A DNA stretch of 64,000 nt from Solidesulfovibrio fructosivorans JJ]. Lineage in GTDB: Bacteria > Desulfobacterota > Desulfovibrionia > Desulfovibrionales > Desulfovibrionaceae. The translations under genes and the position numbers were made by a program. The notes beneath the pieces were generated by a model. The model ran no database searches. It was not told the DNA's origin and saw nothing but the letters and a program-made list of their open reading frames with translations. Shown in pieces: positions 541-15,913 of the stretch. Every line of letters begins with the position of its first letter. The stretch's first letter is position 1. The DNA lies in contig NZ_AECZ01000009.1 in the NCBI RefSeq assembly GCF_000179555.1, positions 1 through 64,000 on the forward strand, written 5' to 3'.

Positions 541-1326
541 TTAGCCGTCGTCGCGGACCGGACGAAATCCGTGACCGAAGGACGGGTCGTAGAGTTTGGA
601 GCATGTTCCCTGGCCGAGCCCGGGCAGCACCAAGAAAAGGGTTTGCCGGTCGACGCCGGCATGGCGCACCGTTTCGGCCAGGGTGGCGACGGTGGCCCAG
701 AGGCGTTTTTCCCCAGGCCAGCCCAGGCGATGGGCGATGGCCACCGGCGTGTCCCCGGGGAGTCCCGCTTCGCGCAGGGCGGCGGCCACGCCCTCGGGAT
801 CGCCGGCCGAGAGGTAGATGGCCAGGGTGGCTTTGTGCGCGGCCAGGGCGGCCAGGGATTCCCCCGGCGGCATGGGCGTGCGCCCGGCGAGCCGGGTCAG
901 GATCAGGCTCTGGGTCGTCTCCGGTTCGGTTACGGAGACGCCGAAGGCGGCGGCGGCGGCCGAGGCCGAGGTAACGCCGGGAATGACCTGATAGGGGATG
1001 TCGTCGGCGACCAGGAGCCGGGTCTGTTCGGACAGCGCGCCGTAAAGGGCCGGATCGCCGGTATGCACCCGGGCGGCGATGCCCCCGGCCCGCACGGCGT
1101 CTACGAGCAGGGCATGGGTCTCGGCCAGGGTCAGCGGCGCGGAATCGACCACCCGCGCCTCTTTTTTGGCCAGGGCCACCACGGCCGGCGATACCAGCGA
1201 GCCGGCGTAAAGGACCAGATCGGCCCGGCCGATGATCCGGGCGGCCTTGACCGTGAGCAGCTCCGGGTCGCCGGGGCCGGCTCCGATGAAATAGACGCCG
1301 CAAGGGACGTCGGGCGCGTCAGCCAT
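541..1326 (-). CDS. cbiF: Cobalt-precorrin-4 C11-methyltransferase CbiF
   Basis: This 261-residue SAM-dependent tetrapyrrole methyltransferase is the CbiF/CobM type that methylates C-11 of (cobalt-)precorrin-4 in cytoplasmic corrin-ring synthesis. The N-terminal GAGPGDPELLT motif (about residues 15-25) and the TGDPALYGA motif (about 90-98) form the SAM and substrate pocket typical of the family, and the length matches. The start codon overlaps the end of cbiET by 8 bp, so translation is coupled. Because cbiD and fused cbiET are also in the window, the anaerobic (early cobalt insertion) route is favoured over the CobM assignment. Confidence 0.93.
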   Translation of the reverse strand: MADAPDVPCGVYFIGAGPGDPELLTVKAARIIGRADLVLYAGSLVSPAVVALAKKEARVVDSAPLTLAETHALLVDAVRAGGIAARVHTGDPALYGALSEQTRLLVADDIPYQVIPGVTSASAAAAAFGVSVTEPETTQSLILTRLAGRTPMPPGESLAALAAHKATLAIYLSAGDPEGVAAALREAGLPGDTPVAIAHRLGWPGEKRLWATVATLAETVRHAGVDRQTLFLVLPGLGQGTCSKLYDPSFGHGFRPVRDDG

Positions 1327-2548
1327 GGCGGGATTCCTTGACGGCGGTTAGGACGAAGACGGGATTTTCGGCGCAAAACCGCAGGTCCCCGGCAAGCGGG
1401 GTTGCCGTCTCCGCCTGGACCTGGGTGAGGGTCACGGGCCAGCCCAGGGCGCGAAGCGTTTCCAGGGCGCTGTGCAGGCTGCCGAGCAGCACGCAGTTGG
1501 CGACCAGCCTGCCCCCGGGGCGCAGCCGCCGGCACAGTTCGGGCAGCAGGTCCGGCGCGTTTGTCAGGCCCCCGCCGATGAAAATGCGGTCCGGGTCCGC
1601 CAGCCCGGCCAGGGCGTCCGGGGCCTCGCCGTGGATGGGCGTCACGGTCAGCGCGCCGGTGCGGCGGATGTTGTCCATAAGCAGCGCATGCCGGGCCGGA
1701 TCGCGCTCCACGGCAAAGACCGGGCCGCCGAGGTTTAACAGGGACGCTTCCAGGGCCACGGCCCCGGTCCCGGCCCCCACGTCCCAGACGACGTCTCCCG
1801 GACGCGGTGCGAGCCCGGCCAGGGACACGGCCCGCACCGGAGCCTTGGTGAAGACGCGGTCGCTTCGCGAAAGCGCGTCGTCGGCAAGGCCCAGGCTGAG
1901 CGCGATTTCGGGCGGGTGCGTGCGTTCGACGAGCGTGAGGTTGAGCGGGGAAAAATCCTGGTTGGCCGCCTCGGCCAGACGCAGGCTGCGGCGGCGCTCC
2001 CCGGGCAAGCCCATTTCCTCCAGCACGTGCATCGTAAAGGCTGCGCCGCCGCGCCCAAGCAGCTTGTCCGCGATGACGGCCGGGGTGTTGACGGCGTCGG
2101 TGTAGACCGCTGCCGCGCCGTGGCGGACGAGGGCGGCGAAAAGGGGCGTCAGGTCGCTTCGGCCGTGGAGCGAAACGGCCGGGAGGTCCTGCCAGGGCCG
2201 GCCCAGCCGGGCGGCGGCGGCCCCGACGGCGGTGACGCTCGGGTAAAACGTCAGGCGATCGGACCCGAAACGTTCGACCAGCAGGCGGCCGATGCCGAAA
2301 AAAAGCGGATCGCCGTCGGCCAGCACGCAGACCGCCTCGCCGCTGTCGGTAGCGGTTTCGATGGCGTCGCACACGGCGGCAAGCGGACCGACGATGGGGA
2401 TGCGGCGCGCGGGATGATCCGGAAAAAGGGCAAGCTGGCGGGCGCCGCCGACCACCACGGCGGCCCCGGCCAGGGCGTCGGCCGGTTCCGGGGCCAGCCA
2501 TGGCCGGCCGATGCCGCAGCCGATGACGGCGACGCGCTTGGGGGTCAT
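1319..2548 (-). CDS. cbiET: Cobalt-precorrin-7 C5-methyltransferase / C15-methyltransferase-decarboxylase (CbiET fusion)
   Basis: A 409-residue two-domain enzyme. The N-terminal half (about 1-205) is a CbiE tetrapyrrole methylase beginning VAVIGCGIG with a LADGDPLFFGIG loop. The C-terminal half (about 215-405) is a CbiT class-I methyltransferase with DVGAGTGAVALEAS (SAM motif I) and an IFIGGGL block. Together they methylate C-5 and C-15 and decarboxylate the ring-C acetate side chain late in corrin ring synthesis; the CobL fusion of the aerobic route has the same layout. The ATG at 2546-2548 fits where CbiE proteins begin; the ribosome site is weak. It is the first gene of cbiET-cbiF-yjbQ and is divergent from the membrane protein at 2670. 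Confidence 0.92.
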   Translation of the reverse strand: MTPKRVAVIGCGIGRPWLAPEPADALAGAAVVVGGARQLALFPDHPARRIPIVGPLAAVCDAIETATDSGEAVCVLADGDPLFFGIGRLLVERFGSDRLTFYPSVTAVGAAAARLGRPWQDLPAVSLHGRSDLTPLFAALVRHGAAAVYTDAVNTPAVIADKLLGRGGAAFTMHVLEEMGLPGERRRSLRLAEAANQDFSPLNLTLVERTHPPEIALSLGLADDALSRSDRVFTKAPVRAVSLAGLAPRPGDVVWDVGAGTGAVALEASLLNLGGPVFAVERDPARHALLMDNIRRTGALTVTPIHGEAPDALAGLADPDRIFIGGGLTNAPDLLPELCRRLRPGGRLVANCVLLGSLHSALETLRALGWPVTLTQVQAETATPLAGDLRFCAENPVFVLTAVKESRHG

Positions 2549-2669
2549 GTCGGGTACTCTCCAGAGGTCATGCCCCCCTGTACGCGCGCGTCGGGCCGGG
2601 GTCAAAAGGGTGGTTGCCCTTTTGGCGGGGCTGGGTCAGAAGTGTTTCAATGTGAAAAAGGGGGGTGAT

Positions 2670-3374
2670 ATGCTCGATCAACGCATTGGCGTCAGGTTCA
2701 TGGGCGGGGCGCTGGCATCCCTGGGGTATACGGCGCTTTGCGCCGTGCTGGCGCTTTTTGTCATTCCGGCGGCCTGGGGCGTGGTGGCCTTTACGGCCTG
2801 GTGGTGCGGCGGGCTTGTCTTTTCCGACGGCACCCGGGCGGAATTTACCGGGCGGGGCGGCCGCGTCTGGCCGCTTTTTGCCGTGGCGGTTTTTTTGGCC
2901 ATTCTGCCAAGCCTCGTGACGGCGGGCATGGAACACAACGCCAGGACGACGTCCGTGCAGTTGCTGCTCGTGTTGGCGCTGGTGCCGTTCGACGTGGCGG
3001 TCAAGCTGCCCATCTACCGCTGGCTGTTCGCGAACATCCGGCTCGAGCCCGGCGGCGCGCCCCGGTTCCACGGACGATACCTGCCCTATCTCGGCTGGGT
3101 GCTGCTTTTTTACCTCACGGCCCTGACCGTGGTGCTGTGGCCCTGGGTGGCCACGGGGCTTGTGCGCTGGTTTTGCGACAACCTCGAGGGCGACGGCTAC
3201 GATGTCATGTTCGTGGGCACGGGCTGGGGGCTTCTCTGGCGCTCCGTCGTCTGGTTCGTCGGTTCCCTTCTCTTGATCCCCATTCCCTGGGTGCTGCGTT
3301 CCATGTACCGCTGGTGGACGGACAACCTCGAGCTTGTCCGCCATCCTGCCGACGCAACTTCCTTTCCCGCCTGA
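2670..3374 (+). CDS. Integral membrane protein of unknown function
   Basis: A 234-residue hydrophobic protein that I do not recognise. About six membrane segments can be seen (near residues 12-32, 34-50, 68-88, 94-112, 148-172 and 200-220). The loops are rich in Trp, Arg and Tyr, and the C-terminal tail contains WWTDNLELV. The start at 2670 follows AAAAAGGGGGG, and a longer in-frame reading upstream would overlap the cbiET promoter region. It is divergent from cbiET and converges on cbiD with a 7-bp gap. Its place between two cobalamin blocks hints at a link to corrinoid or metal transport, but no motif supports that. Confidence 0.75.
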   Translation: MLDQRIGVRFMGGALASLGYTALCAVLALFVIPAAWGVVAFTAWWCGGLVFSDGTRAEFTGRGGRVWPLFAVAVFLAILPSLVTAGMEHNARTTSVQLLLVLALVPFDVAVKLPIYRWLFANIRLEPGGAPRFHGRYLPYLGWVLLFYLTALTVVLWPWVATGLVRWFCDNLEGDGYDVMFVGTGWGLLWRSVVWFVGSLLLIPIPWVLRSMYRWWTDNLELVRHPADATSFPA

Positions 3375-3381
3375 TCTTCCG

Positions 3382-4482
3382 TTAAATGGGGCCAGGGGAG
3401 GCAGCGCCTCCCCTGGTCAGCATCACGCCATCGAAGTCGAACACGACGAGGGTGATGGCCGGGGAGCCGCCGGCAAAGCGGCGCATATGGGCCAGCGCCT
3501 CGCCGGCGAGCAGTTCGGCCAGGGCGCGTTTGGCTTCGGCCGAGGGGGCGATCTCGAAGGCATGACGGGCGGTGTTGGCCGTGGCCGCCTGCCGCGCTAA
3601 ATCCTCTGGCCAGCCGGCCAGGGCGCACCAGTCGGCCAGGGCGGAAAAATCGGTTTCCCCTTTATGGGCATGGGTGTTGGGCAACCCCTGGGCCATCTTG
3701 ACCAGCTTGCCGGGAAAGGCCGCCCAGACAATGGCCGCGAATTCCCGCCTGGCCGCTTCCGCAAGGGCGAAGGCGAAGAAATCCGCCGCCTGGACGCAGG
3801 CCGTTTCCGGCAGATCGGGGTAAAGGCTCCGCAGGAACGCCTCGCTGCGCCTGCCGGTGGAAAACCCGACCGTGCCATGGCCGAGCGCCTTGGCCACGTC
3901 GAGGGCTTCGGCGATGGAGGCCTTCCAGGCCTCGTGGCTAAACGGCCGCACGATGCCGGAGACGCCGAGGATGGAGATGCCGCCGACGATGCCCAGGCGC
4001 GGGTTGAGCGTCCGCTTGGCGATGGCTTCGCCGCCTTCCACCGTGACCACGGCCGCAAGTCCGCCCCCGTAGCCGCACTGGCGCGCCGCTTCGGTCAGGG
4101 CGGCGATGATCTGCTGGCGTGGCGCGGGATTGATGGCCGCCTGCCCGACCGGCACCGGCAGCCCCGGCAGCGTCACCCGGCCGACGCCCTCGCCGCCGTC
4201 AAGCGCGATCCCCGCTTCGGCCCGGCGCGTCACCCGGCAGCCGATGCGCGCCCCGTGGGTCGCGTCCGGGTCGTCGCCGCCGTCCTTGATGATGCAGGCT
4301 GCGGCTCCATCCCCTTCGCGCCGCGCTTCGGCCACGGCCAGGGACATACGGGAACCGTTCGGCAACGGCACATCGACGGTTCCGGGTACCGCCCCGCCAA
4401 GAAGCGTGAGCGCCGCCGCCTTGGCCGCGCCGGCCGCCGCCGTGCCGGTGGTGAAACCCTCGCGCAGCTTTTCCCCGGCCAT
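3382..4482 (-). CDS. cbiD: Cobalt-precorrin-5B C1-methyltransferase CbiD
   Basis: This 366-residue protein is CbiD, which methylates C-1 of cobalt-precorrin-5B in the anaerobic corrin pathway. It opens with the family hallmark REGFTTGTAAAGAAKAA (residues 6-22) and carries the IKDGGDDPDATHG block and the GGISILGVSGIVRPFS loop. Its start ATG overlaps the stop of cbiA by one base (TGATG), so the pair is translationally coupled. CbiD is specific to the anaerobic route and so sets the pathway type for this organism. Length is normal for the family. Confidence 0.94.
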   Translation of the reverse strand: MAGEKLREGFTTGTAAAGAAKAAALTLLGGAVPGTVDVPLPNGSRMSLAVAEARREGDGAAACIIKDGGDDPDATHGARIGCRVTRRAEAGIALDGGEGVGRVTLPGLPVPVGQAAINPAPRQQIIAALTEAARQCGYGGGLAAVVTVEGGEAIAKRTLNPRLGIVGGISILGVSGIVRPFSHEAWKASIAEALDVAKALGHGTVGFSTGRRSEAFLRSLYPDLPETACVQAADFFAFALAEAARREFAAIVWAAFPGKLVKMAQGLPNTHAHKGETDFSALADWCALAGWPEDLARQAATANTARHAFEIAPSAEAKRALAELLAGEALAHMRRFAGGSPAITLVVFDFDGVMLTRGGAASPGPI

Positions 4483-6161
4483 CAGTCCCTCCCTTTGGCG
4501 CAGCAGGCCGCGAAATGGGCCGCCGCCCGGGGATTGCCGCCGAAATGCAGGTGCACGTAGCTGCCGAGCGTGTTGCCGCGCAGAAATCCCTCCGGCGCGT
4601 CGATGGGCCCCTTGCGTCCGGTCAGGGCATAGACGGCCGCAACCTCGCCCGTGTCGCCGTCCAGGCGCGAATAATGGAACTCGTGCCCCCGCAGCCGGGT
4701 CCCGGCCGGCCCAAGCGGCGTGTCCGCCCGGGTGACCGCCTCCCGGTAGCCCAGGGCCGAGAACCGTTCGCCCATGATCGCCCGGAACGGAAACACCCCG
4801 GCCATGGCCTGGCTGCGTCCCGCTTTGTCGACAAGCGACTCCATCAGATACATGAACCCGCCGCACTCGGCCAAAACCGGCCGCCCGGCGGCGCAGAATT
4901 CCCGGATGGCCCCGCGCATGGCCGCGTTCGCCGCAAGCTGTTGCGCGAAAAGCTCCGGATAGCCGCCGCCCAGGTACAGTCCCCCCACACCCTCGGGCAG
5001 GGCCGTGTCCGCAAGCGGCGAAAAATACGCCAGTTGCGCTCCGGCCGCTTCGAGCAGCCGCAGATTCTCCGCATAATAAAAGCAGAATGCCGCATCGCGG
5101 GCGACGCCGATGAGGGGCGATGTGGAGGGTATGCCTCCGGCGGCCAGGGGCGCTGCCCCTGGACCCTGCCGGGGGACCACGGCTCCCCCGGACCCCCGTA
5201 ATGGGGGGAGGGATGGAATGAGGCGCGGCAGGTCCATGTGCGCTTCAATCCAGTCGGCCAGGGCGTCGAGGCGGGTAAGGGCCTCGGGGTCGGTTTCGGC
5301 CGTAACGAGCCCCAGGTGCCGCGAAGGCATGGCGATTGCCGGCCGGCGCGGCAACACGCCCCAAAGCGGCGTCTCAGGAAGCGCGACGGCCATGACCTCG
5401 GCCAAAAGCTCGCGGTGGCTGTCGCTGCCGGCGTTGTTGAGCGCCACGCCGCAAAAAGCGAGCTCCGGATCGAACCCCGTAAACCCGGACACCATCGCCG
5501 CCGTTGACCGGGCCATGGACGCGGCGTCCGCCACCAGCAGCACCGGCAGCCCGAGCGTCTTGGCCAGCCGGGCCGTGCTGCCGGCGTCGTCCGTGGCCGA
5601 GAAGCCGTCGAAAAGCCCCATCACCCCCTCGACCACCACCATGTCCGCGTCGGCCGCGTACCGGGCGAAGATCTCCCGCATGCCGTCCGGGCCGCACATC
5701 CAGTCGTCGAGGTTGTGGCTCACCCGGCCCGTGGCCAGCCCATGGTGCCCCGGGTCGATGAAGTCCGGCCCAACCTTGAACGCCTGCACCCGCAGCCCGC
5801 GCCGCGAAAGCGCCCGCATCAGCCCCAGCGCCACCGACGTCTTGCCGCAGCCGCTGCGCGTGCCGGCCACGACGAGGCCGCGCCCGGGGCGGGGGGATGG
5901 GTCGTCGGCGGGGCGCTGCCCCGGCCCCCGGCGGGGCTCCGCCCCTGCACCCCGCCGGGAGGCCAGGGGCCCCCCGGACCCCCCGTCCGGCTTTGGCTGG
6001 GCGGAGGATGGGTTGGTTGGCGGAAGGTCGGTGGGAGGAAGATGGAGTCGGCATTTGCCGGGACGGTGCCGCCGCTTCGCGGCAGGCTCGTCCCGGGCAA
6101 ATGCCGACTCCACCGCGCCGTCGCCCCGTTGGGGCGAAAGTGGCAAGGAAGAATCGTTCAT
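4482..6161 (-). CDS. cbiA: Cobyrinic acid a,c-diamide synthase CbiA, enlarged by repeat-derived segments
   Basis: CbiA amidates the a and c side chains of the corrin ring with glutamine and ATP. The P-loop GTRSGCGKTS is near residues 99-108, DDWM follows, and the class-I glutaminase half holds GGGYPELFAQQLA, the nucleophile Cys in ECGGFMYLM, and the HEFHYS motif. At 559 residues it is roughly 80-100 longer than usual. The excess sits in two places whose DNA is made of palindromic repeats: residues about 10-90 before the P-loop and about 320-342 in the interdomain linker. The ATG at 6161 is the only ATG upstream of the P-loop, with weak GGAA spacing, so the true start is uncertain. It heads cbiA-cbiD. 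Confidence 0.88.
   Translation of the reverse strand: MNDSSLPLSPQRGDGAVESAFARDEPAAKRRHRPGKCRLHLPPTDLPPTNPSSAQPKPDGGSGGPLASRRGAGAEPRRGPGQRPADDPSPRPGRGLVVAGTRSGCGKTSVALGLMRALSRRGLRVQAFKVGPDFIDPGHHGLATGRVSHNLDDWMCGPDGMREIFARYAADADMVVVEGVMGLFDGFSATDDAGSTARLAKTLGLPVLLVADAASMARSTAAMVSGFTGFDPELAFCGVALNNAGSDSHRELLAEVMAVALPETPLWGVLPRRPAIAMPSRHLGLVTAETDPEALTRLDALADWIEAHMDLPRLIPSLPPLRGSGGAVVPRQGPGAAPLAAGGIPSTSPLIGVARDAAFCFYYAENLRLLEAAGAQLAYFSPLADTALPEGVGGLYLGGGYPELFAQQLAANAAMRGAIREFCAAGRPVLAECGGFMYLMESLVDKAGRSQAMAGVFPFRAIMGERFSALGYREAVTRADTPLGPAGTRLRGHEFHYSRLDGDTGEVAAVYALTGRKGPIDAPEGFLRGNTLGSYVHLHFGGNPRAAAHFAACCAKGRD
5136..5199. repeat. GC-rich palindromic repeat inside cbiA (linker)
   Basis: This stretch holds GGGGCGCTGCCCC and CCCCCGGACCCCC blocks, with the two arms around GCCGGGGGACCACGGCTCCCCCGG forming a hairpin. 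The same blocks recur at 5909-5990. It is in frame and adds a Pro/Gly/Ala-rich segment (residues about 321-342) between the two CbiA domains. Confidence 0.6.
5909..5990. repeat. Second copy of the GC-rich palindromic repeat, N-terminal region of cbiA
   Basis: It shares GGGCGCTGCCCC, CCAGGGG and CCCCCGGACCCCC with the repeat at 5136-5199 and folds into nested GC hairpins. It encodes residues about 57-84, ahead of the CbiA P-loop, in a segment with no resemblance to CbiA proteins. Confidence 0.6.
6044..6116. repeat. Long inverted repeat at the 5' end of cbiA
   Basis: The arms GGAGTCGGCATTTGCC and GGCAAATGCCGACTCC are perfect complements, and the inner arms GCCGC/GCGGC close on a GAA loop. The hairpin lies within codons about 15-39 of the cbiA reading frame as called, or in its leader if translation begins later. 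Confidence 0.75.
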
Positions 6162-7675: not shown

Positions 7676-7852
7676 GGGACCTCGACGTGGCGTTGTTTTC
7701 GCCTTGTTTACAACAAGGCGGGGCGCCGTATTCTTTAACCGATCCGGCCTCGGAAGTCATCCCGGAGCCTGCCGCCGGTATCGCTGGCGGCTTGACGCGG
7801 CATGGCCGAAAGACGATACTATAATACGGAATAACCCCAAGGAGCGTGCCGC

Positions 7853-8131
7853 ATGAAACCGGTCGATCTGCTGTACATGGGACTTGGCGCGGCCTTTTTG
7901 GCCAAGGACAAGTTCGAGGCGTTCGTGGACGAGATGGAAAAGCGCGGCGAGATGTCGCGCACCGAGGCCAAGAACTTCCTGGAAGACGCCAAGGCCCGGG
8001 CGCAACAGGAAGAGGAGGCGCTAAACGCCCGCATTCGCAAGGAGTTGCAGAAAGTTCTGGAAGGCATGGGCCTGGCCACCAAGGAGGACATTGCCGAACT
8101 CAAGGCGCTTATCGAGAAAAAGCCGTCCTGA
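7853..8131 (+). CDS. Small phasin-like coiled-coil protein
   Basis: A 92-residue, highly charged helical protein with an N-terminal hydrophobic patch (LLYMGLGAAFLA) and long Glu/Lys/Ala-rich helices (about residues 20-90). It resembles the phasin/PhaF-like family of granule-associated coiled-coil proteins, but no polyhydroxyalkanoate genes are nearby. Translation starts after AAGGAG, and the stop overlaps the next start (TGATG), coupling it to the AarF/UbiB kinase. A tiny coiled-coil protein coupled to a UbiB-type protein suggests an accessory role like that of UbiK/UbiJ in quinone synthesis; that is inference. Confidence 0.75.
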   Translation: MKPVDLLYMGLGAAFLAKDKFEAFVDEMEKRGEMSRTEAKNFLEDAKARAQQEEEALNARIRKELQKVLEGMGLATKEDIAELKALIEKKPS

Positions 8132-9681
8132 TGCCGTCCGGATTCGCGCCGCGCCGCGTCTGGCTGGCTTTTCGGTTCCTCCATACGGTCTTCGTGCTGG
8201 TGCGGCGCAAGGAGCGGTTTCTCGCCTTGCGCCCCTTGCCGCCGCGCCGGCTCAAAGAGGCCATCCTGACGCTCGGCGTCAGCTTCATCAAGCTGGCCCA
8301 GGTGCTGGCCACCCGGGCCGATTTTTTTACCGAGGACTATCTGGTCGAACTGCGGGGCATCCACGACGAGGTCGCCCCCATGCCCGAGTCCGATTTCCGG
8401 ACGGCCTTCGCCAGGGCCTTCGGCGCCGCGCCGCCGTTTGCCGCCTTTGAGGCGCAGCCGCTGGCCAGCGCGTCCATCGGCCAGGTGCATGAGGCGTATC
8501 TTGCCGACGGGAATAAGGTTGCGGTGAAGCTGCGCCGGTTGGGGGTGGAGCGGCTGGTGCGGGCGGATTTGCGGCTGGTGCGGGGCATGTTGTCCCTTTT
8601 CTCCCCGTTTTTTTCGCGGGCTACGAAAAATTCCGTGGAAGCCGTGCTGGCGGAATTTTCCGCCATGATCGTCAAGGAAGCCGACTTGTCCGTGGAGCTT
8701 GCCAACCTGCGCAAGTTCACCGACGCCTACGGCGACGGCGCGGTGCGGTTCCCTGCTCCCGTGCCGGAGCTTTCCAACGCCGACGCCCTGGTCATGAGCT
8801 TCGAGACCGGGTTTCGCATCGACGACAAGGCCGGGCTGGCCGCCGCCGGCATCCCCTTCCGCAAGGTGCTCGACGACCTGATCGCCTTTTATATCGAACA
8901 GATGCTGGTGCGGGGCTATTTCCACGCCGACCCGCATCCCGGCAACATCCTGGTGCGGCCGGATGGGGGCATCACCCTGCTCGATTTCGGCATGGTCAAG
9001 CGGCTTCCCGCCGACACCCGGGTGGCCATGATCGAGGTGGCCAAGACCGCCCACGACCGGGACTACGAGGGCTTCATCGTGGCCTGCAAGCGTCTGGGCA
9101 TCGTGGCCGCCGGGGCCGAGCCCACCGAGATGATGGAATTTTCCGAGCGCATGTTCGACATCTTCGGCGACGCCAGCCTGTCCGCCGCCTCCATGCAGGC
9201 GCTGGCCTTCTCGGTGCTCGATTCCATGAAGGACCTGCCGTTCAAGGTGCCTCAGGACGTGGTCTACGTCATGCGGGCGAGCACGCTGATCGAGGGCCTC
9301 GGCACCACCTACATCGAGAATTTCAACGGCGTGAAGGACATCCTGCCGCTTCTGCGCCGCAATCTGGCCCGGGCCATGGGCGCGGAGGCCGGGCTTTTTC
9401 CCACCCTGCGTTCGGAACTGACCAGCCTGCCGCTGACCTTGCGCCGGGCCAAGACGGTGCTGACGGACTTAAGCGAATCCAACCTGCGGGTGAAGCTCTC
9501 GCCCGAGACCCTGGAATACGCCGGCGAACGCCTGCGCCCCTATCTGCGCCGGGTGGCGTTGGGGATTTTGCTCCTTGCCGCCGCCTTTCTCGTGGCCCTG
9601 ACGCGGCCGCCCCATGCCGTGCCCATTGCCTGGACACTGTTTGCGGCCGGGGCGGTACGCATCTGGCTGGCTCTCCGTTAG
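8131..9681 (+). CDS. ABC1/AarF/UbiB family atypical kinase-ATPase
   Basis: A 516-residue member of the UbiB protein-kinase-like family, whose bacterial and mitochondrial members support isoprenoid quinone synthesis. Visible signatures are the KxGQ-type helix (SFIKLAQ, with Ala for the usual Gly, near residue 52), the Ala-rich loop ASIGQVHEAYL (near 112), HADPHPGNILV (near 269) and LLDFGMVKRL (near 286). Two hydrophobic helices at the C-terminus (about 472-512) anchor it to the membrane, as in UbiB. Sulfate reducers use menaquinone, so the partner is probably that pathway. The gene is translationally coupled to the small coiled-coil protein upstream and converges on the nitrogenase-like cluster. 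Confidence 0.88.
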   Translation: MPSGFAPRRVWLAFRFLHTVFVLVRRKERFLALRPLPPRRLKEAILTLGVSFIKLAQVLATRADFFTEDYLVELRGIHDEVAPMPESDFRTAFARAFGAAPPFAAFEAQPLASASIGQVHEAYLADGNKVAVKLRRLGVERLVRADLRLVRGMLSLFSPFFSRATKNSVEAVLAEFSAMIVKEADLSVELANLRKFTDAYGDGAVRFPAPVPELSNADALVMSFETGFRIDDKAGLAAAGIPFRKVLDDLIAFYIEQMLVRGYFHADPHPGNILVRPDGGITLLDFGMVKRLPADTRVAMIEVAKTAHDRDYEGFIVACKRLGIVAAGAEPTEMMEFSERMFDIFGDASLSAASMQALAFSVLDSMKDLPFKVPQDVVYVMRASTLIEGLGTTYIENFNGVKDILPLLRRNLARAMGAEAGLFPTLRSELTSLPLTLRRAKTVLTDLSESNLRVKLSPETLEYAGERLRPYLRRVALGILLLAAAFLVALTRPPHAVPIAWTLFAAGAVRIWLALR

Positions 9682-9694
9682 TGAAAGTACGACG

Positions 9695-10900
9695 CTACGC
9701 GCCGAAAAGCGCCTGCTCGAAAGAGGCGTAGCCTTTTTCCACCGCATATTCGTAGGGCATGTCCCAGTTGAAGCGGGCGCTTAAGGCGATATGCGGCACC
9801 GGGACAAAGCGCGCCTTGCGGGTGAGCAGGGCTTCGTAGCACGGGTCTGCGACAATGAAATCCACGGCCGGATCGTTTACGCGCTCGGCAATGGCCTGCT
9901 CGGCGTCGGTGTCCAGGTCGCGGGGGCCGCGCGCGGCGAGAACGCCCCGGCAACCGGGCGCGTCGGCAAAAAGCGCCTCGGACGGCGTCACGGACACCAC
10001 GTCCACCTCGGGCAGGCCGAAATCGCGGCGCAGGCAGTGCTTGATGCCATAGCTGACGACCGGCTCGCCGATGACCAGGGCGTGTTTAAAGGGCGCTGGG
10101 CGCGCGGGCGGCGTCGCCGGGGCGGCGGGACGTCCCTCCAGCATGGCCAGGATGTCGGCCAGTCCCTGCCGGCCGACGGGCAGGCCGGCCACATAGGGCG
10201 TGCCGTAGGCGGCCTGCATGCGCGCGGCCAGGGACAGGCCGCTTGCCGAAACCACCAGGTTGGCGGCCGCTTCCGGGGCCTCGCGTACGGCCTGGAGCGG
10301 GTCCTCTTGGCCCGGGCGGGCCACGGAAAAGACGCTGACCAGGGCATGGCCGGCTTGTTCAAGGGCCGTCAAAAGCGGCTGGATATGTTCCGGCTTGCCC
10401 GTGGACAGGTGGATGGCCCCGAGCACGTTCAGGCTTTTTCCCCGCTTCTTTGTCGGCGGAACCATGAACTTGTCGGCCAGGGCCAGAAACGCCTTGCCCG
10501 CGCCCTCGGGGTAGGGCTCCGAGCCGGCGGTCGGCACCATGAACACCGGCAACCCGGTGCGGGCTTCCAGCGTGCGGGCGAAGCCCTTGAGGTCCGTGCC
10601 GATGATCTCCGAGATGGGCGTGCCGGCCAGGGCGATGAACCGGCGGTCGAGCTCGGTTGCGACCTTGGCGATGTTGTCGATGAACTTGTCCTCGTTGCCG
10701 AGGATGACGTCCATCTCCAGCAGTCCGGCCCCGACCACGGTGGCCGGTCCCCGGTACCAGCGGGGCTCGTCCTCGATATTGATGTGCCAGGCCCCGCCGG
10801 CCGGGCCGTAGATCACCACCAGCCCGTCGAAATCGTACAGGGCCGAACTGACGCCGAAATAGCCTGTGGCCAGGGGCAGAAGCTTGTGGAAGATTTTCAT
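9695..10900 (-). CDS. Nitrogenase-like component, K/N-type subunit without cluster cysteines
   Basis: A 401-residue member of the NifD/K/E/N superfamily, last gene of the five-gene cluster. Superfamily landmarks remain: GPAGGAWHI where NifK/E have GPxxC, ELDV-like LLEMDVILGNEDKF, and AGTPISEIIGTDL where NifK has a Cys before EVIGDDL. Both metal-ligating Cys positions are replaced, and no Cys occurs in the first ~280 residues; the three that exist lie in the C-terminal domain. The subunit can therefore give no canonical Cys to an interface iron-sulfur cluster. The second ATG (10900) is chosen because GGAG is well spaced from it and overlaps the first ATG. It starts 25 bp after the D-like gene. 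It is not NifK, BchB or a recognisable NifN. Confidence 0.8.
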   Translation of the reverse strand: MKIFHKLLPLATGYFGVSSALYDFDGLVVIYGPAGGAWHINIEDEPRWYRGPATVVGAGLLEMDVILGNEDKFIDNIAKVATELDRRFIALAGTPISEIIGTDLKGFARTLEARTGLPVFMVPTAGSEPYPEGAGKAFLALADKFMVPPTKKRGKSLNVLGAIHLSTGKPEHIQPLLTALEQAGHALVSVFSVARPGQEDPLQAVREAPEAAANLVVSASGLSLAARMQAAYGTPYVAGLPVGRQGLADILAMLEGRPAAPATPPARPAPFKHALVIGEPVVSYGIKHCLRRDFGLPEVDVVSVTPSEALFADAPGCRGVLAARGPRDLDTDAEQAIAERVNDPAVDFIVADPCYEALLTRKARFVPVPHIALSARFNWDMPYEYAVEKGYASFEQALFGA

Positions 10901-10925
10901 GTGCTCCATCCTTGCGCTGTCGGGC

Positions 10926-12224
10926 TTAAATGAGGAACTGGCGCCGGTAGATCCAGTCGTGGTTGCTGACCGGATGGGCCATCGCCTGCCGGGTTTCCTC
11001 GAGCATCCACACGGCGTTTTCGTAGCCGTAGTGCTGCTCCTGGTAGCGCGACAGCGGCACGTTGACCGCCTTGGCGCAGAACATGCCGGCGTCCACGCCG
11101 TAGGCCAGGTCCACGTGGTCGAAGGCGGCCGTTTCGCCGCAGAGGTTCGGGTGGGAGACGTTGTAGACCCGGATGTGCGGCGCGACCTCGCGCAGGCGTT
11201 CGATCAGCTTCCATTCGTAGGGCTTGAAGGTGCCGCGCCCGAAGATGGTATCCACCGTGAGTCCCGCGTCCACGAAGGCCAGGGCCAGCTCGTAGGGGCT
11301 GCCGTTGATCGCGCATCCAATGGCGATGGTCTTGCCGCGAAGGGTGTCGAGGAGCGGTCCGGCGGCTTCCTTGGCGGCCTTCTCGGCGGCCGTCGTGTCC
11401 AGGTCGCGGCCGAGGGCCTCGCCTATTTTGGCGTACTGGGCGGCGATGGTCCCGAAGCCGTAGGCCGTGGGCACGAAAAGCGACGGGATGCCCAGCTCCT
11501 TTTCCATGCGTCCGGCCATGCCGTTGGCCAGCGGATGGAGCACCAGGGAATGCCCGGCCGAGGCCATGCGGGAAAACTCCTCGAGATCGGCGCAAAGGGG
11601 AATCTGGGTGAGGCGCGACAGGCCGGCCGCCCGCAGCACCGCGTAGAATTCGCCGTCCGGGGAAAGCGGCATGAAGGTGCCGAGCAGGTTCACGGCGTCG
11701 GGATCGGGCGTGCGCGGCGCATCCTTTAAAAACTCGAAAAACGAGGTGTAGGCCGAGGTGAAGGGCGATTCCTTGAGCCCGATGGTGATGGGGGCCATGG
11801 CCCCGAGGATGACGCGGCGGCCGGTGGCGGCCGTGAGCCGCTCGAGCACGCCGGTGAAATCCGTGCCCAGGATGTAGTCCGGGCAGCCGACGATGAGGAA
11901 GATGGCCTTTTCCGGCCGGGTGGCCGCGATGTCCCGCACGGCCTTCTCGATCTTGTCCAGATGCCGGCCCATGGTCATGTCCACTTCCTCGAGGCACAGC
12001 ATATAGAAGCGGTCGCCGAATCCTCGGGCATGGGCCATGAAGGCCGAGTGGCGCAGGCAGGCCGAGGGCCCGACCATGATGGAAAGCGACTCGGGCAAAA
12101 GGAGCGAGGTTTCGATGACGCCCCAGCCGGCCAGATTGGGGCCCACGCCCTCCAGCGGCGCGAAGGGGAAATCCTCCCGTCGCGTGAGCCGCGCCATCTC
12201 GATCGAGGCTTGTGTTGCGCGCAT
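10926..12224 (-). CDS. Nitrogenase-like component, D/E-type subunit
   Basis: A 432-residue NifD/NifE-superfamily protein. Three Cys lie where NifD binds its P cluster: Cys56 in VGPSACLRHS, Cys77 in FYMLCLEEVDM and Cys114 in VGCPDYILGTD. The Rossmann-type repeats of the fold follow. The C-terminal half has no obvious counterpart of the NifD Cys/His pair that holds FeMo-co, although C-terminal Cys occur (NLCGETAAF, GMFCAKAV). An AGGAG site precedes the start. With the Cys-free partner downstream, three Cys from this subunit could hold a cluster, much as BchN supplies three ligands in BchNB. The substrate is unknown. It is separated from the nifH-like gene by 133 bp containing a hairpin. Confidence 0.85.
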   Translation of the reverse strand: MRATQASIEMARLTRREDFPFAPLEGVGPNLAGWGVIETSLLLPESLSIMVGPSACLRHSAFMAHARGFGDRFYMLCLEEVDMTMGRHLDKIEKAVRDIAATRPEKAIFLIVGCPDYILGTDFTGVLERLTAATGRRVILGAMAPITIGLKESPFTSAYTSFFEFLKDAPRTPDPDAVNLLGTFMPLSPDGEFYAVLRAAGLSRLTQIPLCADLEEFSRMASAGHSLVLHPLANGMAGRMEKELGIPSLFVPTAYGFGTIAAQYAKIGEALGRDLDTTAAEKAAKEAAGPLLDTLRGKTIAIGCAINGSPYELALAFVDAGLTVDTIFGRGTFKPYEWKLIERLREVAPHIRVYNVSHPNLCGETAAFDHVDLAYGVDAGMFCAKAVNVPLSRYQEQHYGYENAVWMLEETRQAMAHPVSNHDWIYRRQFLI

Positions 12225-12283
12225 GGCGTTCTCCTGTTGTCTTCTCAGTCCCCCTTTCCCATCAGCTCATGAGAAAAGGAAAA

Positions 12284-12349
12284 AAGTTTAGGAAGGGGAG
12301 AGCGCGAGAGGGGAGAACCCTTTTTAAAGGGTTTCCCCTCTCGCATCGC
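12284..12349 (-). terminator. Subtype A hairpin between the nifH-like and nifD-like genes
   Basis: The A-type palindrome sits 8 bp after the stop of the NifH-like gene and about 60 bp before the NifD-like start. Minus-strand reading gives a GC stem followed by CCCTTCCTAAACTTTTTT. It could partially terminate transcription, giving more NifH-like protein than DK-like, or protect a processed 3' end. Confidence 0.65.
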
Positions 12350-12357
12350 TTCCTTTC

Positions 12358-13104
12358 CTATAATCCCATCATGGTCCGGGCGAGGTTGCGGAATTCGAGG
12401 GAGGTCGGCAGTCCGGGGTCGCCTTCCACGATGGTCCTGCCTTCTTCCTCGAAGGCGTGGATGGCCCGGTCGCGGGGGATGACGCCGAGGATGGTGGTGT
12501 CCATTTTGGCGGCGAAATCCTCCACCCGGGCCTTCTCGTCGGCCATGTCGCGGCAGTTGAGGATCAGCCCGCCGAGCTCGGCGTAGTGGCGGTCGGCGAA
12601 ATGGCGCAGGGCCAGGATGATGTTGCGGGCGGCGAGCAGGGCCATTTTTTCGCCCGAGGTGACGATGGCCACCTTGTCGGCGAAGCCTTCGCGCATGGGC
12701 ACGGCGATGCCGCCGCAGACGATGTCGGCCAGGATGTCGTAGAGCACCACGTCCGGGGCGTAGGTCGCGTAGGCGTTCATTTCTTCCAGCAGCTCGAAGG
12801 CGGTGAGCATGCCCCGGCCGAAGCAGCCGACGCCGGGAGTCGGGCCGCCGACCTCCAGGCAGGTGGTGCCGCCGAAACCGGTGCGGGCGATCTCGTCGAG
12901 GCTGGCCGGCCGGCCGTGTTCCTGGAGGTATTGCAGGATGGGCGGCGGGGTCAGGCCGCGCAGCAGATTGATGGTGGAGTCCGTTTTCGGGTCGCAGCCG
13001 ATCTGCATGACCTTGCGGCCCTCGAGGCTCAGGGCGGCCGAGAGGCTTGAGGTCACGGTGGATTTGCCGATGCCGCCCTTGCCGTAGATGGCGATCTTAA
13101 TCAT
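12358..13104 (-). CDS. NifH-like ATP-dependent reductase (nitrogenase superfamily)
   Basis: A 248-residue P-loop ATPase of the NifH/BchL/CfbC family. The Walker [10 protein letters not shown] starts near residue 9, DPKTDST follows, and the two Cys that bridge the homodimer [4Fe-4S] cluster are present: Cys94 in PGVGCFGRG and Cys130 in [14 protein letters not shown]. It should pass electrons to the DK-like complex with ATP hydrolysis. It is shorter than NifH (about 290) and lacks the usual C-terminal tail. The internal ATG at 13104 is the true start because it begins [11 protein letters not shown]; it overlaps the radical-SAM gene by 8 bp. Because of the neighbours this is neither nitrogenase NifH nor a chlorophyll-pathway BchL. 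Confidence 0.9.
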
Positions 13105-14110
13105 GCGCCGCTCCTTGCATCTTGAGGGAATCACCGCGACTGGAGCCGATCGTGCGTCCGGCGCGGGCCAGCACGTTTTTCGCCTCGTCGACGGAGACGT
13201 ACCGTTTTTTGGTGGTGATCTGGAATTCGTATTCGATTTTGTCTTTTTTGCTTTGGGCGAAGGGGTTGCAGTTGGGCATGATGACGTTGGCCCCGCCCTG
13301 GACGAGCGCTCGGTACTGGCCCTGGTCCGGGTCCAATGTCGCGACGGTGTTGGCCGCCGCCAGATGGGTGTTCCGGGTCACGATGCGGGTCAGGGCGAAG
13401 ACGCGCAGCATCAGTTCGATGTCCCCGGCCGGCTCGCTCCCGAGCGGCGTGCTGCCGTCCGGAATAAACGGCCCGATGTTGACCATGTCCGGTTGGAAGT
13501 CCTGGAAAAAGAGGATGTCGTCGGCCAGATCGTCCAGGGTTTGGCCGGGCAGGCCGACAATGTTGCCCACGCCCGTCTGGTAGCCCAGGTCCCGGATGGT
13601 CTTTAAAGCGCGAAGCCGCCCGGCCAGCGTGCGTCCGGGGCGCATCCGGGCGTAAAGCTCCGGGTTCATGGTCTCGTGCTTCATGAGGTAGCGGCCGGCC
13701 CCGGCGTCCCGGAAGGCGCGCAAATCGTCCGGCGAGCGCTCGCCGAGGCTCAGGGTGACGGCCACGTCGGCCTGGTCGAGAATCCGGCGCAGGATCGAGC
13801 GGACCCGCTCCCGGGTGTAGTAGCCGTCCTCGCCGGATTGGAGGACCACGGTGCGAAGCCCTGCGTCGGCCACGGCGAGGGCGGTCTCCACGACCGTATC
13901 CTCGGACATGCGAAAGCGCTCGATGGCGCGGTTGCTTGCGCGCAGGCCGCAATAAAGGTCGTCGCACGAGCAGTGGTTGGAAAAGTGCACCACGCCGCGC
14001 AGCTGGGCCTCGTCGCCGCAATGTTCCCGGCGCACGCGGTCGGCCTCCGTAAAAAGCGCCTTTCCGGCCGCCGGATCGCCCAGGGCGTCGAGGATTTCCC
14101 GTCTGTTCAT
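13097..14110 (-). CDS. HydE/PylB/BioB-like radical-SAM enzyme with unusual Cys spacing
   Basis: A 337-residue radical-SAM protein most like HydE, the maturase that builds the organometallic part of the [FeFe]-hydrogenase site: FSN..C..YCGLR near residues 43-57, [17 protein letters not shown], [12 protein letters not shown] and a Cys/Pro-rich C-terminal block. The cluster motif is odd. HydE has CxxxCxxC, but here it reads C47-S-C49-DDLY-C54, so the second Cys is two residues early and Asp sits where the ligand should be. The DNA reads this clearly. The ATG at 14110 follows AAAAAGGATGC and is 20 bp after the hydrogenase-like gene. It may make or modify a cofactor for the nitrogenase-like or NiFe-like protein. 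Confidence 0.87.
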
Positions 14111-14130
14111 GGCCGCATCCTTTTTCCCGC

Positions 14131-15792
14131 TTATTTCGCGTTGGTGCTTGTCACGCGGCCGGTGTCGGCGTCCTCGACGCGCAGCACGCAGGCGTTGCAG
14201 GGATCGAACGTGTGTATGACGCGCAAGAGTTCCAGTGGATTGGCCGGGTCGGCCACCGGGATGTCCAGCAGGGCCCGCTCCAGGGGGCCGGGAATCCCGT
14301 CGCCGCTTCGGGGGGAGAAGTTCCAAAGCGAGGGCACGAGCGCCTCGTGGGCGACGATCCGCCGGTTTCGCAGGCGGATGCGGTGCACGAGCGCGCCCCG
14401 TGTGAGTTCCGCCAGGCCGATGCCCTCGCCGCTGTCCGGGAGCGTGAAAGGCACCTGCAGGACCGGGTTTTCCGCGTCGAGGCAGCGGTCGAGGTCGCCG
14501 AGCCAGGCCGTGACGGAGCGGATGCAGGCCACGGATTCGATGCCCCGGGCCAGCACCCGGCCGATGACGGAATCAAGCGCTCCAAGCGGCAGACCGAGCG
14601 CTGTCAAGGCCGCGTCCGCAAGCTCCCGGACCATGGCGTTGGCGCGTCCGTAGGCTCCGACGATGCGGGCCACGGGCCCGACCTCGCAGGCCCGGCCGGC
14701 ATGGCGCGGCGCGCTGAACCAGCGGAAATCGTCGTTTCGCCAGTGGTAGGCCGTTTCCCCCGGGCCGAAGCGCAGCCGGTAGCGGTCCTTGTCCCGCTCG
14801 GCCCAGCCCGGGTCCGTCTCGTCGGTGACCGCGTCCGGGCTGGCCGGCGCGGCCTGGCCGGCGTCTTTAACCGTGAAGACGCCGCCCGGGAAAAGGGCGT
14901 CGCCCCCCTCCGGGCCGGGGAACTCCCCCCAGGACAAAAAGGCGTCGGAGCGGCCCACGGCGGCCCAATCCTTATAGATGCCGCCGACGAGCAGAACGTC
15001 GGGCAGGAAGGTGCCCTCGATAAATTGCCGGCACTCGCCCAAAAGCGCCGCGCAGGCGGCCCGGGCCGTGGGGGAAAGGTCGGGATTGCCGCCGCCGGTC
15101 AGGCTGGCGCTTTGGGGGAGCCCCCCGATATGCCAGGTGGCGTTGGCGGCCAACGCGCCGCGCAGGATGCCCTGGGCTCTCGTCAGCTTGGTCCGGATGT
15201 CCATGGCCGGCTGGATGTGACTCAAAACGAGCAGGCTGGCTTCGGGCGAGGCGTTCTGGGCCGGGTGGCCGGCCTTGCCCACGGAAAAGACCGTGCCGCC
15301 GTCGCCCGCGGCCAGGGCGGCCAGCAGGCCTTGCGCCTCTTGGTAGAATTTCGCCCCGGCGGCGAGGGAGGGGCTTTTTTCGCGGGCAAAGGCGGCCGTC
15401 TTTTCGGGCGAGGCGCGCAGGGCGGCGGCGAGGTCCAGCCAGTCGTTGCTATAGAACAAGTAGAAATGGGTGAGATGGTCGAGAAGGTACTGGAGCGCGT
15501 GCACGATGTTTCGCGCCAGACGCGCGGATTCGGGCAGGCGTATGCCGATGAGCCGTTCCAGGGCCCGGGTGGCGGCCAGGGCATGGCCGGCGTTGCACAG
15601 GCAGTGGGGGCGCTGGGCGAAAAAGGATTCCTCCCCGGACAGTCTGGCCCCGAGCAGGTAATTCATGTTGTGGAGCATCTTCCCCGTGCTCCAGGCCCGC
15701 GCCACCCGCCCCTTGGCGCGAAGGACGCTGATGATGAAGAGGTTGCCTTCGCACAGGGCGATGCCGGCGTTTTTTTCGGGGTGTATGGACAT
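14131..15792 (-). CDS. NiFe-hydrogenase large-subunit homologue with altered active-site ligands
   Basis: A 553-residue protein that aligns along its whole length with group-1-type large subunits: ARAWSTGKML near 31-40, ARNIVHALQYLLDH, TRGALVHRI, ALVPSLWNFSPR and DPCNAC near the end. The metal-binding motifs have changed. L1 reads R61-P-H63-C64-L-C66-NAGH, so the terminal-ligand Cys is His with a new Cys beside it. L2 reads D530-PC-NA-C-VLR538, so the final His used as Mg ligand and cleavage marker is Arg. The N-terminal TRIEGH is CEGN. There is no small subunit, endopeptidase or hyp gene nearby. It may be a scaffold, a different metal site or an enzyme subunit working with the nitrogenase-like proteins. 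First gene of the cluster. Confidence 0.85.
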   Translation of the reverse strand: MSIHPEKNAGIALCEGNLFIISVLRAKGRVARAWSTGKMLHNMNYLLGARLSGEESFFAQRPHCLCNAGHALAATRALERLIGIRLPESARLARNIVHALQYLLDHLTHFYLFYSNDWLDLAAALRASPEKTAAFAREKSPSLAAGAKFYQEAQGLLAALAAGDGGTVFSVGKAGHPAQNASPEASLLVLSHIQPAMDIRTKLTRAQGILRGALAANATWHIGGLPQSASLTGGGNPDLSPTARAACAALLGECRQFIEGTFLPDVLLVGGIYKDWAAVGRSDAFLSWGEFPGPEGGDALFPGGVFTVKDAGQAAPASPDAVTDETDPGWAERDKDRYRLRFGPGETAYHWRNDDFRWFSAPRHAGRACEVGPVARIVGAYGRANAMVRELADAALTALGLPLGALDSVIGRVLARGIESVACIRSVTAWLGDLDRCLDAENPVLQVPFTLPDSGEGIGLAELTRGALVHRIRLRNRRIVAHEALVPSLWNFSPRSGDGIPGPLERALLDIPVADPANPLELLRVIHTFDPCNACVLRVEDADTGRVTSTNAK

Positions 15793-15884: not shown

Positions 15885-15913
15885 AATATAAAAGGTGTCA
15901 CCAGTACGATCAA
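15885..15913 (-). promoter_or_regulatory. Sigma70-type promoter of the nitrogenase-like cluster
   Basis: On the minus strand TTGATC (15908-15913) and TATATT (15885-15890) are spaced exactly 17 bp, about 90 bp upstream of the hydrogenase-like start. No sigma54 (GG-N10-GC) promoter was seen, unlike typical nif genes. Confidence 0.55.

Follow-up and report, generated by a model that had tools for sequence, protein, structure and literature searches.

The window analysed here is a 64,000-nucleotide stretch of Solidesulfovibrio fructosivorans JJ (positions 1 to 64,000 of NZ_AECZ01000009.1), part of contig C9 in a 4.67-Mb genome. Its minus strand carries five open reading frames (ORFs), L-E-H-D-K, that bring together a homologue of the NiFe-hydrogenase large subunit (L), a HydE homologue (E, hereafter E*) and a nitrogenase-like complex (H, D and K) (Table 1). 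The initial annotation described five same-strand genes with close spacings and one hairpin gap behind a single promoter, and all ORFs and gaps are confirmed from the sequence: L and E* are 20 bp apart, E* and H overlap by 8 bp, H and D are separated by 133 bp, and D and K by 16 bp, or by 25 bp when counted from the second Met of K. The inverted repeat in the H–D gap is followed by no T run, and a scan for terminators did not call one. The promoter fares less well; a sigma-70-like match does lie upstream of L, but it is no evidence alone because shuffles of the region yield 0.8 such matches. As the initial annotation stated, no small subunit, nifB, nifEN or hyp gene is recognised next to the operon within the window.

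Table 1 Features of the L-E*-H-D-K operon in the window
Feature	Position	Strand	Description
L	14131..15792	-	553 aa; NiFe-hydrogenase large-subunit homologue, metal site altered; PF00374 338.5 bits
E (= E*)	13097..14110	-	337 aa; HydE homologue; TIGR03956 268.8 bits
H	12358..13104	-	248 aa; NifH-type Fe protein; PF00142 258 bits
D	10926..12224	-	nitrogenase component-1-like subunit; PF00148 95.3 bits
K	9695..10909	-	nitrogenase component-1-like subunit; PF00148 89.7 bits
Inverted repeat, H–D gap	about 12304..12344	-	read from sequence
Sigma-70-like match upstream of L	15885..15913	-	weak; 0.8 expected by shuffling

The gene order is conserved well beyond the window. Among 247 genomes of the same family, all 19 with D at E <= 1e-200 have L-E-H-D-K in this order (in G244, one of the 19, L is cut by a contig end), which bears out the expectation that the genes travel together; the five-gene unit is conserved as a unit and is not a chance association. 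Identity to the window in other genera is 33-52% for L, 64-75% for E*, 74-85% for H, 64-75% for D and 62-74% for K. Ratios of nonsynonymous to synonymous substitution rates (dN/dS) between the window and G109 are 0.37 (L), 0.18 (E*), 0.08 (H), 0.10 (D) and 0.16 (K), which indicates purifying selection on all five genes in this pair. Nine relatives come from named records, six of which are judged to be genomes of the family set and two to be G319 and G351; they comprise Desulfovibrionaceae, two Desulfofervidaceae and one Desulfobacterales bin. Both Desulfofervidaceae have E-H-D-K in a cluster without L, and the Desulfobacterales bin has E-H-D-K on a contig that begins inside E, so that the presence of L cannot be judged there. 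Across 395 genomes drawn from the phylum, the only additional carriers are these two Desulfofervidaceae. In genus g40, 10 of the 79 genomes carry a more distantly related form in which the H-D-K set occurs twice.

Gene maps of the relatives fall into three architectures, all of which place the operon among hydrogenase genes. In the L-E*-H-D-K architecture, hydF lies within the fetched stretch in 8 of the 19 genomes, mostly with aspA and in several with hydA, hydB and TM1266, and these counts are limited by contig ends; G024, G212 and G244, for example, carry hydF on other contigs. Directly after K comes hypC in 13 of the 19, and hypD and/or hypE lie beyond it in seven (the hypD of G208 is a short piece only), so that the absence of hyp genes noted in the window does not extend to its relatives. 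Desulfofervidaceae have the order hydA-hydB-TM1266-(hypE-hypC)-aspA-hydF-E*-H-D-K-hypF(-hypD), with hydF adjoining in both genomes. Genus g40 has hydA-hydB-TM1266-hydE-hydF-H-D-K-H-D-K-hypF-hypC-hypD-hypE, with hydF in 10 of 10 and some loci cut by contig ends. When ten representative neighbour proteins are compared with NCBIfam models, nine exceed the curated cut-off; the tenth, a 123-aa HydB, matches [FeFe]-hydrogenase A6 at a score under the cut-off. Of the H-cluster motifs, TSCCP and MPCxxK are present in all HydA proteins that are complete in the fetched stretches, and the third motif in all except that of G061; full-length HypD proteins have CGTH and GCPVC, and every complete HypE has PRIC at its C-terminus. 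Aspartate ammonia-lyase (AspA) can provide the bridgehead nitrogen of the H-cluster, and AspA and the hyd operon are described as known partners in passages of PMC11736057. In the window itself hypC is not found; a candidate from the recurrent-neighbour cluster in the window genome proved to be an out-of-frame ORF and was rejected.

This context also bears on the suggestion in the initial annotation that the corrin genes 0.5-6.2 kb away point to a tetrapyrrole substrate. Corrin-biosynthesis-like genes do lie near the operon in the window (541-6161, minus strand), and DPOR, COR and CfbCD are established nitrogenase-like tetrapyrrole enzymes. Against such a reductase, the recurrent neighbours of the relatives are hyd and hyp genes and include no corrin genes, and H, D and K score far under the Bch and Cfb cut-offs, leaving it the most improbable reading considered here. 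Nor do the recurrent neighbours include sulfur-metabolism genes or another candidate enzyme. A gene similar to the ABC1/UbiB-like kinase that lies just downstream of K in the window and points towards it (7846-9681, plus strand) is also near the operon in G024 and G109.

A comparison of the same hyd locus with and without the operon shows which genes are missing. In g41, the locus of G088 and G041 reads hydB-hydA-hydF-hydE-aspA-hydG-TM1266, where G088 has both systems and G041 HydEFG only. In G069, which carries L-E*-H-D-K, it reads hydB-hydA-hydF-aspA-TM1266, without hydE and hydG. The DNA of G069 and G088 is 85-86% identical over hydB-hydF and aspA, which flank the missing hydE (HydA is 91% identical), and the sole HydE relative of G069 is the E* of the operon. 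Similarly, in genus g8 the order in G117 is hydA-hydB-TM1266-hydG-aspA-hydE-hydF, and G048, a carrier of L-E*-H-D-K, has the identical order minus hydG. G024, another carrier, has an N-terminal piece of hydG with about 130 matched residues (L201:2730-3110) between TM1266 and aspA, the place that hydG occupies in G117, and this piece is apparently a remnant. In genus g5 the order hydF-hydE-hydG-TM1266-hydB-hydA of G208, G220 and G201 is found without hydG in G224 and without hydE and hydG at that locus in G212 and G148; the loci of G224 and G208 are compared by gene order alone, as a nucleotide comparison gave no match. Genus g8 genomes also encode another HydF with a lower score (about 350 bits, in a frame of >500 aa), at G048:C1:2335459-2336610 and G105:C1:3350-4504.

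The same pattern is seen in counts across the 247 family genomes. With cut-offs of E <= 1e-90 for HydF, E <= 1e-105 (>= 356 bits) for HydG and E <= 1e-60 for HydA, HydF is found in 139, HydG in 120, HydA in 160 and H-D-K in 21. All 21 genomes with H-D-K have both HydF and HydA, and HydF is present in G319 and G351 too. HydG is missing from 16 of these 21, as compared with 12 of the 118 HydF-positive genomes without H-D-K (Fisher p = 1e-9). When HydA is also required, HydG is absent/present in 16/5 versus 8/101 (p = 9e-11). The comparison within genus g5, the only one in these tests that accounts for shared descent, gives 6/1 with H-D-K versus 1/21 without (p = 1e-4). At the curated HydG cut-off of 312 bits G162 changes sides, and the counts become 15/6 versus 12/106 (p = 1e-8). 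HydG is absent from 14 of the 19 L-E*-H-D-K genomes and is missing in G319 and G351 as well; eight more g40 genomes (67-94% complete) are without it, save for a paralogue of 328-333 bits in two. Of the 14 HydG-less L-E*-H-D-K genomes, 10 have no match to the HydE family other than E*, and the same holds for both Desulfofervidaceae. A second HydE is above the cut-off in G024 and G048, and below it in G224 (220 bits) and G226 (166 bits). The HydE of G226, which lies by hydF (L052:15850-16737), is strongly diverged, forms the longest branch of the HydE tree and is possibly decaying.

Taken together, these genomic patterns make it probable that L-E*-H-D-K is an alternative system for H-cluster maturation that replaces HydG, as well as HydE in most of the HydG-less genomes, with HydF, AspA, TM1266 and HydAB kept. 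The putative replacement of HydG by the set is well supported by genomics, and the route to the H-cluster appears to be previously undescribed. Between the two functions proposed in the initial annotation, an ATP-driven reductase with a new metal centre or a maturation system for one, maturation is the better guess; the metal centre is most likely not a new one and is instead the known H-cluster, because the operon of the relatives sits among hydF, aspA, hydA, hydB, TM1266 and hyp genes and HydG is usually missing. In searches of the open-licence PubMed Central (PMC) literature, which did not extend to non-PMC preprints and most subscription journals, no listed paper ties a nitrogenase-like complex to H-cluster assembly in its title or the start of its abstract.

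Several observations weigh against this proposal. HydE, HydF and HydG are all kept in the window genome and in G065, G088, G109 and G208 (5 of the 19 L-E*-H-D-K genomes), so that in these five the set is not simply a replacement, and the operon of the window genome lies away from its hyd genes. H-D-K alone does not explain the absence of HydG, since 12 HydF-positive genomes, several of them drafts, have neither, and eight of these have HydA. A HydG-like protein of 325-333 bits, just above the curated cut-off, is present in G162, G642 and G645; we treat the group at 310-350 bits as a paralogue because other g40 genomes hold it beside a HydG of about 900 bits. In Desulfofervidaceae and g40 the set comes without L. 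The Hyp genes at the operon need not be dedicated to it, as the large subunit of an Ech-type NiFe hydrogenase, an enzyme that would also need Hyp, is encoded in G162 and G227 (361 aa, with CSLC and DPCVSC, from a search at E <= 10); an argument that these two genomes are without a NiFe hydrogenase (E <= 1e-10), and hence that their Hyp proteins serve the H-cluster, was dropped once this subunit appeared. Finally, passages of PMC9431212 report that hydG was not found by motif in five of eight Clostridium acetogens, and cite work in which HydF co-expressed with HydE, HydG being absent, activated HydA to about 1% of the full level via trace diatomics.

The last result is also a point in favour of a different role, in which the set does not make the H-cluster but supplies low-potential electrons for activating or repairing it, or the precursor bound to HydF, and HydG is lost since HydE and HydF suffice with CO and CN that are Hyp-derived or environmental. 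NifH-type proteins are established electron donors. We nevertheless consider it unlikely, since HydE itself is missing in the 10 of 14 HydG-less genomes where E* is the sole relative, and a conserved D–K pair plus L exceed the needs of an electron donor.

Some distributions stand beside this pattern. The genomes with HydF and HydA and without HydG or H-D-K are G011, G042, G103, G155, G163, G203, G207 and G099, mostly drafts and several of them g42, and may reflect either missing contigs or a third route. The HydG-like protein of g40 at about 310-350 bits, which probably represents a separate family, is encoded at G162:C69:36798-38093 and on G642:C57 and G645:C54. HydA is matched without HydF (E <= 1e-90) in 30 of the 247 family genomes, including the near-complete G002, G045 and G098; two of the 30 are weak HydF pieces or drafts, among others, and in this group HydA may be an orphan or may be matured by a further route.

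E* is a HydE relative with an altered radical-SAM motif. Its score against the NCBIfam HydE model (Table 1) is above the cut-off of 254.6 bits, and its AlphaFold2 (AF2) model, with a predicted local distance difference test (pLDDT) score of 88, superimposes on T. maritima HydE (3iiz) with Z 46.4 and a root-mean-square deviation of 1.8 over 324 aligned residues; a HydE profile alignment that includes T. maritima HydE places it likewise. In a HydE tree of 51 rows, some of which are near-copies of one gene read twice, the 22 E* rows form one clade with support 100/100. The canonical CX3CX2C motif is not found in E*; all 22 sequences have CX3DX2C, in which the middle Cys is replaced by Asp (Asp51), and the other HydE sequences inspected from these genomes, which fall outside the E* clade, retain CX3CX2C. 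An additional Cys281 (PNCNPF) is invariant in E*, at a position where T. maritima HydE has Trp. The [4Fe-4S] cluster of E* could be bound by two Cys and the Asp, or the third Cys could have moved to the PNC loop at Cys281. The Asp-for-Cys swap is a sharp structural question by itself.

L has the fold of a hydrogenase large subunit with part of its metal site changed. In a profile alignment to the D. fructosovorans large subunit it aligns end to end with group-1 NiFe large subunits, and its AF2 model (pLDDT 67) matches 2frv_B with Z 36. The complete set of Ni–Fe ligand motifs is not found, as RxCGxC (L1) is absent in all 18 L sequences and is replaced in 17 by C[LI]CN..H, the copy in G105 being without the first Cys of that motif. 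Of the second ligand motif, DPCxxC (L2), all 18 sequences retain PCNxC, with 17-18 residues after it every time, and none of the 18 has H at the cleavage-site position. Cys66 and Cys535 are presumably the counterparts of the two Cys that bridge Ni and Fe in NiFe hydrogenase, and we take the Cys lost from L1 to be a terminal Ni ligand. By alignment, then, L retains the Fe-bridging Cys counterparts and has lost the Ni-ligand (RxC) position in all 18 sequences. A C-terminal hairpin in the model hints at retention of the tail but no more than that, because the model is of middling confidence. No small subunit is recognised near the operon in the window or among the recurrent neighbours, the rest of the genomes not having been searched.

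H, D and K resemble nitrogenase-type reductases and are set apart by model scores from the Nif, Bch and Cfb groups. H has the Fe-protein P-loop GKGGIGKST and the two cluster cysteines, Cys94 and Cys130, which are kept in 22 of 22 sequences. In the alignments D has invariant Cys56, Cys114 and Cys383 and K has no invariant Cys (GPAGGAWHINIEDEPRW), and at corresponding places in D and K of g40 there are one to three Cys. H scores 275.8 bits against the NifH model (cut-off 394), and D and K score <50 bits against cut-offs of about 500. Likewise H scores 273 against CfbC (cut-off 402) and K 26.7 against CfbD (cut-off 268), for which D is not listed. All three proteins thus score far too low to pass as Nif, Bch or Cfb members by NCBIfam cut-offs, in line with the initial annotation insofar as model and structure-database scores can place them apart, and nothing found in this analysis indicates nitrogen fixation or tetrapyrrole reduction. 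An ATP-driven nitrogenase-type reductase within a system for metal-site maturation is supported.

A substrate reductase of the Mar or Isr type, with E as a cluster-building radical-SAM partner and L as a bystander, has to be weighed here. The closest solved chains to D are the 'nitrogenase' alpha chains 9d9u_A and 9fmg_A (partial profile match, E 8e-19), which we take to be methylthio-alkane reductase (Mar). As described in parts of PMC11423573, a radical-SAM gene precedes H-D-K in Mar and Isr operons, the operon of isethionate reductase being nflBHDK/isrBHDK; NflDK occur in heliobacteria according to passages of PMC9147875. However, E is a HydE relative, whereas IsrB is reported in the same parts of PMC11423573 to be closest to BciD. 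In addition, L accompanies the other four genes in all 19 family genomes, and it is hyd and hyp genes, not sulfur-metabolism genes, that recur next to the operon, which makes a reductase of this type very improbable.

The altered metal ligands of L, E* and D–K, together with the presence of the set beside a complete HydEFG system in five genomes, would also suit the assembly of some other organometallic cofactor for an unknown enzyme, with the HydE- and NiFe-like parts and the hyd neighbourhood explained by shared precursors. Against that reading stand the anti-occurrence with HydG and the loss of hydE and hydG from an otherwise kept locus, and the recurrent neighbours offer no other candidate enzyme; we regard it as improbable.

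For H-cluster maturation by L-E*-H-D-K, a detailed chemistry can be proposed tentatively, and it may well prove wrong in its particulars: a second full route to the H-cluster in which a Hyp-made unit on L is edited by H-D-K and E*. With carbamoyl phosphate as the starting material, Hyp proteins would assemble an Fe(CN)2(CO) unit, as for NiFe hydrogenases, and HypC/HypD would pass it to L, which would have changed from a NiFe large subunit into a scaffold without Ni. As a HypC client, L would account for the presence in the set of a NiFe large subunit without a small subunit. H would hydrolyse ATP and give low-potential electrons to D–K, with its unusual cluster, which would reduce the Fe unit and/or edit its ligands, converting for instance FeII(CN)2CO towards an FeI(CN)(CO)2-type synthon. 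The involvement of an ATP-driven reductase would explain the conversion of a cyanide/carbonyl unit of low-spin Fe(II), which is inert, to a reduced, re-ligated state for HydF. E* would then carry out the HydE-type step that finishes the synthon for HydF, and HydF would complete the [2Fe] precursor and load HydA. In the L-less Desulfofervidaceae and g40, HypC/HypD could donate directly. A synthon of the FeI(CN)(CO)2 type normally comes from tyrosine via HydG; with the proposed route the cell would need neither HydG, canonical HydE nor tyrosine as a source of CO and CN. We know of no nitrogenase-like enzyme that has an organometallic Fe–CN–CO unit as its substrate.

If correct, this proposal would provide a second natural way to the H-cluster, which ranks among the best-studied organometallic cofactors, and would join the metallocofactor worlds of nitrogenase, [NiFe]- and [FeFe]-hydrogenase. 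Nitrogenase-like enzymes would gain a new kind of substrate, the [FeFe]-hydrogenases kept by HydG-less bacteria would be accounted for, and the laboratory would have an additional route to [FeFe]-hydrogenases.

The set shares features with three known systems and differs from each. DPOR/BchLNB, CfbCD, Mar and Isr have the same ATP-dependent H + D–K architecture, here as there with NifEN unrecognised, and Mar and Isr share the radical-SAM gene as well; the proteins described here differ in scoring far under the available models (Nif, Bch and Cfb), in their hydrogenase context and, with respect to nitrogenase-like reductases, in a P-cluster region with two invariant Cys in D and no invariant Cys in K. 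The HypCDEF system of NiFe hydrogenases is represented in some relatives by intact-motif HypC, HypD and HypE beside the operon, and L is homologous to its client large subunit, but here no adjacent small subunit is found, L1 is changed, the cleavage-site H is absent and the target would be another cluster. The third is maturation by HydE, HydF and HydG, with which the system shares HydA as its probable target, HydF as scaffold, AspA and TM1266 as neighbours and a HydE-related E; in place of HydG, absent in 14 of 19 genomes, and of a HydE with the canonical motif, it has an E with CX3DX2C together with H-D-K, L and Hyp genes.

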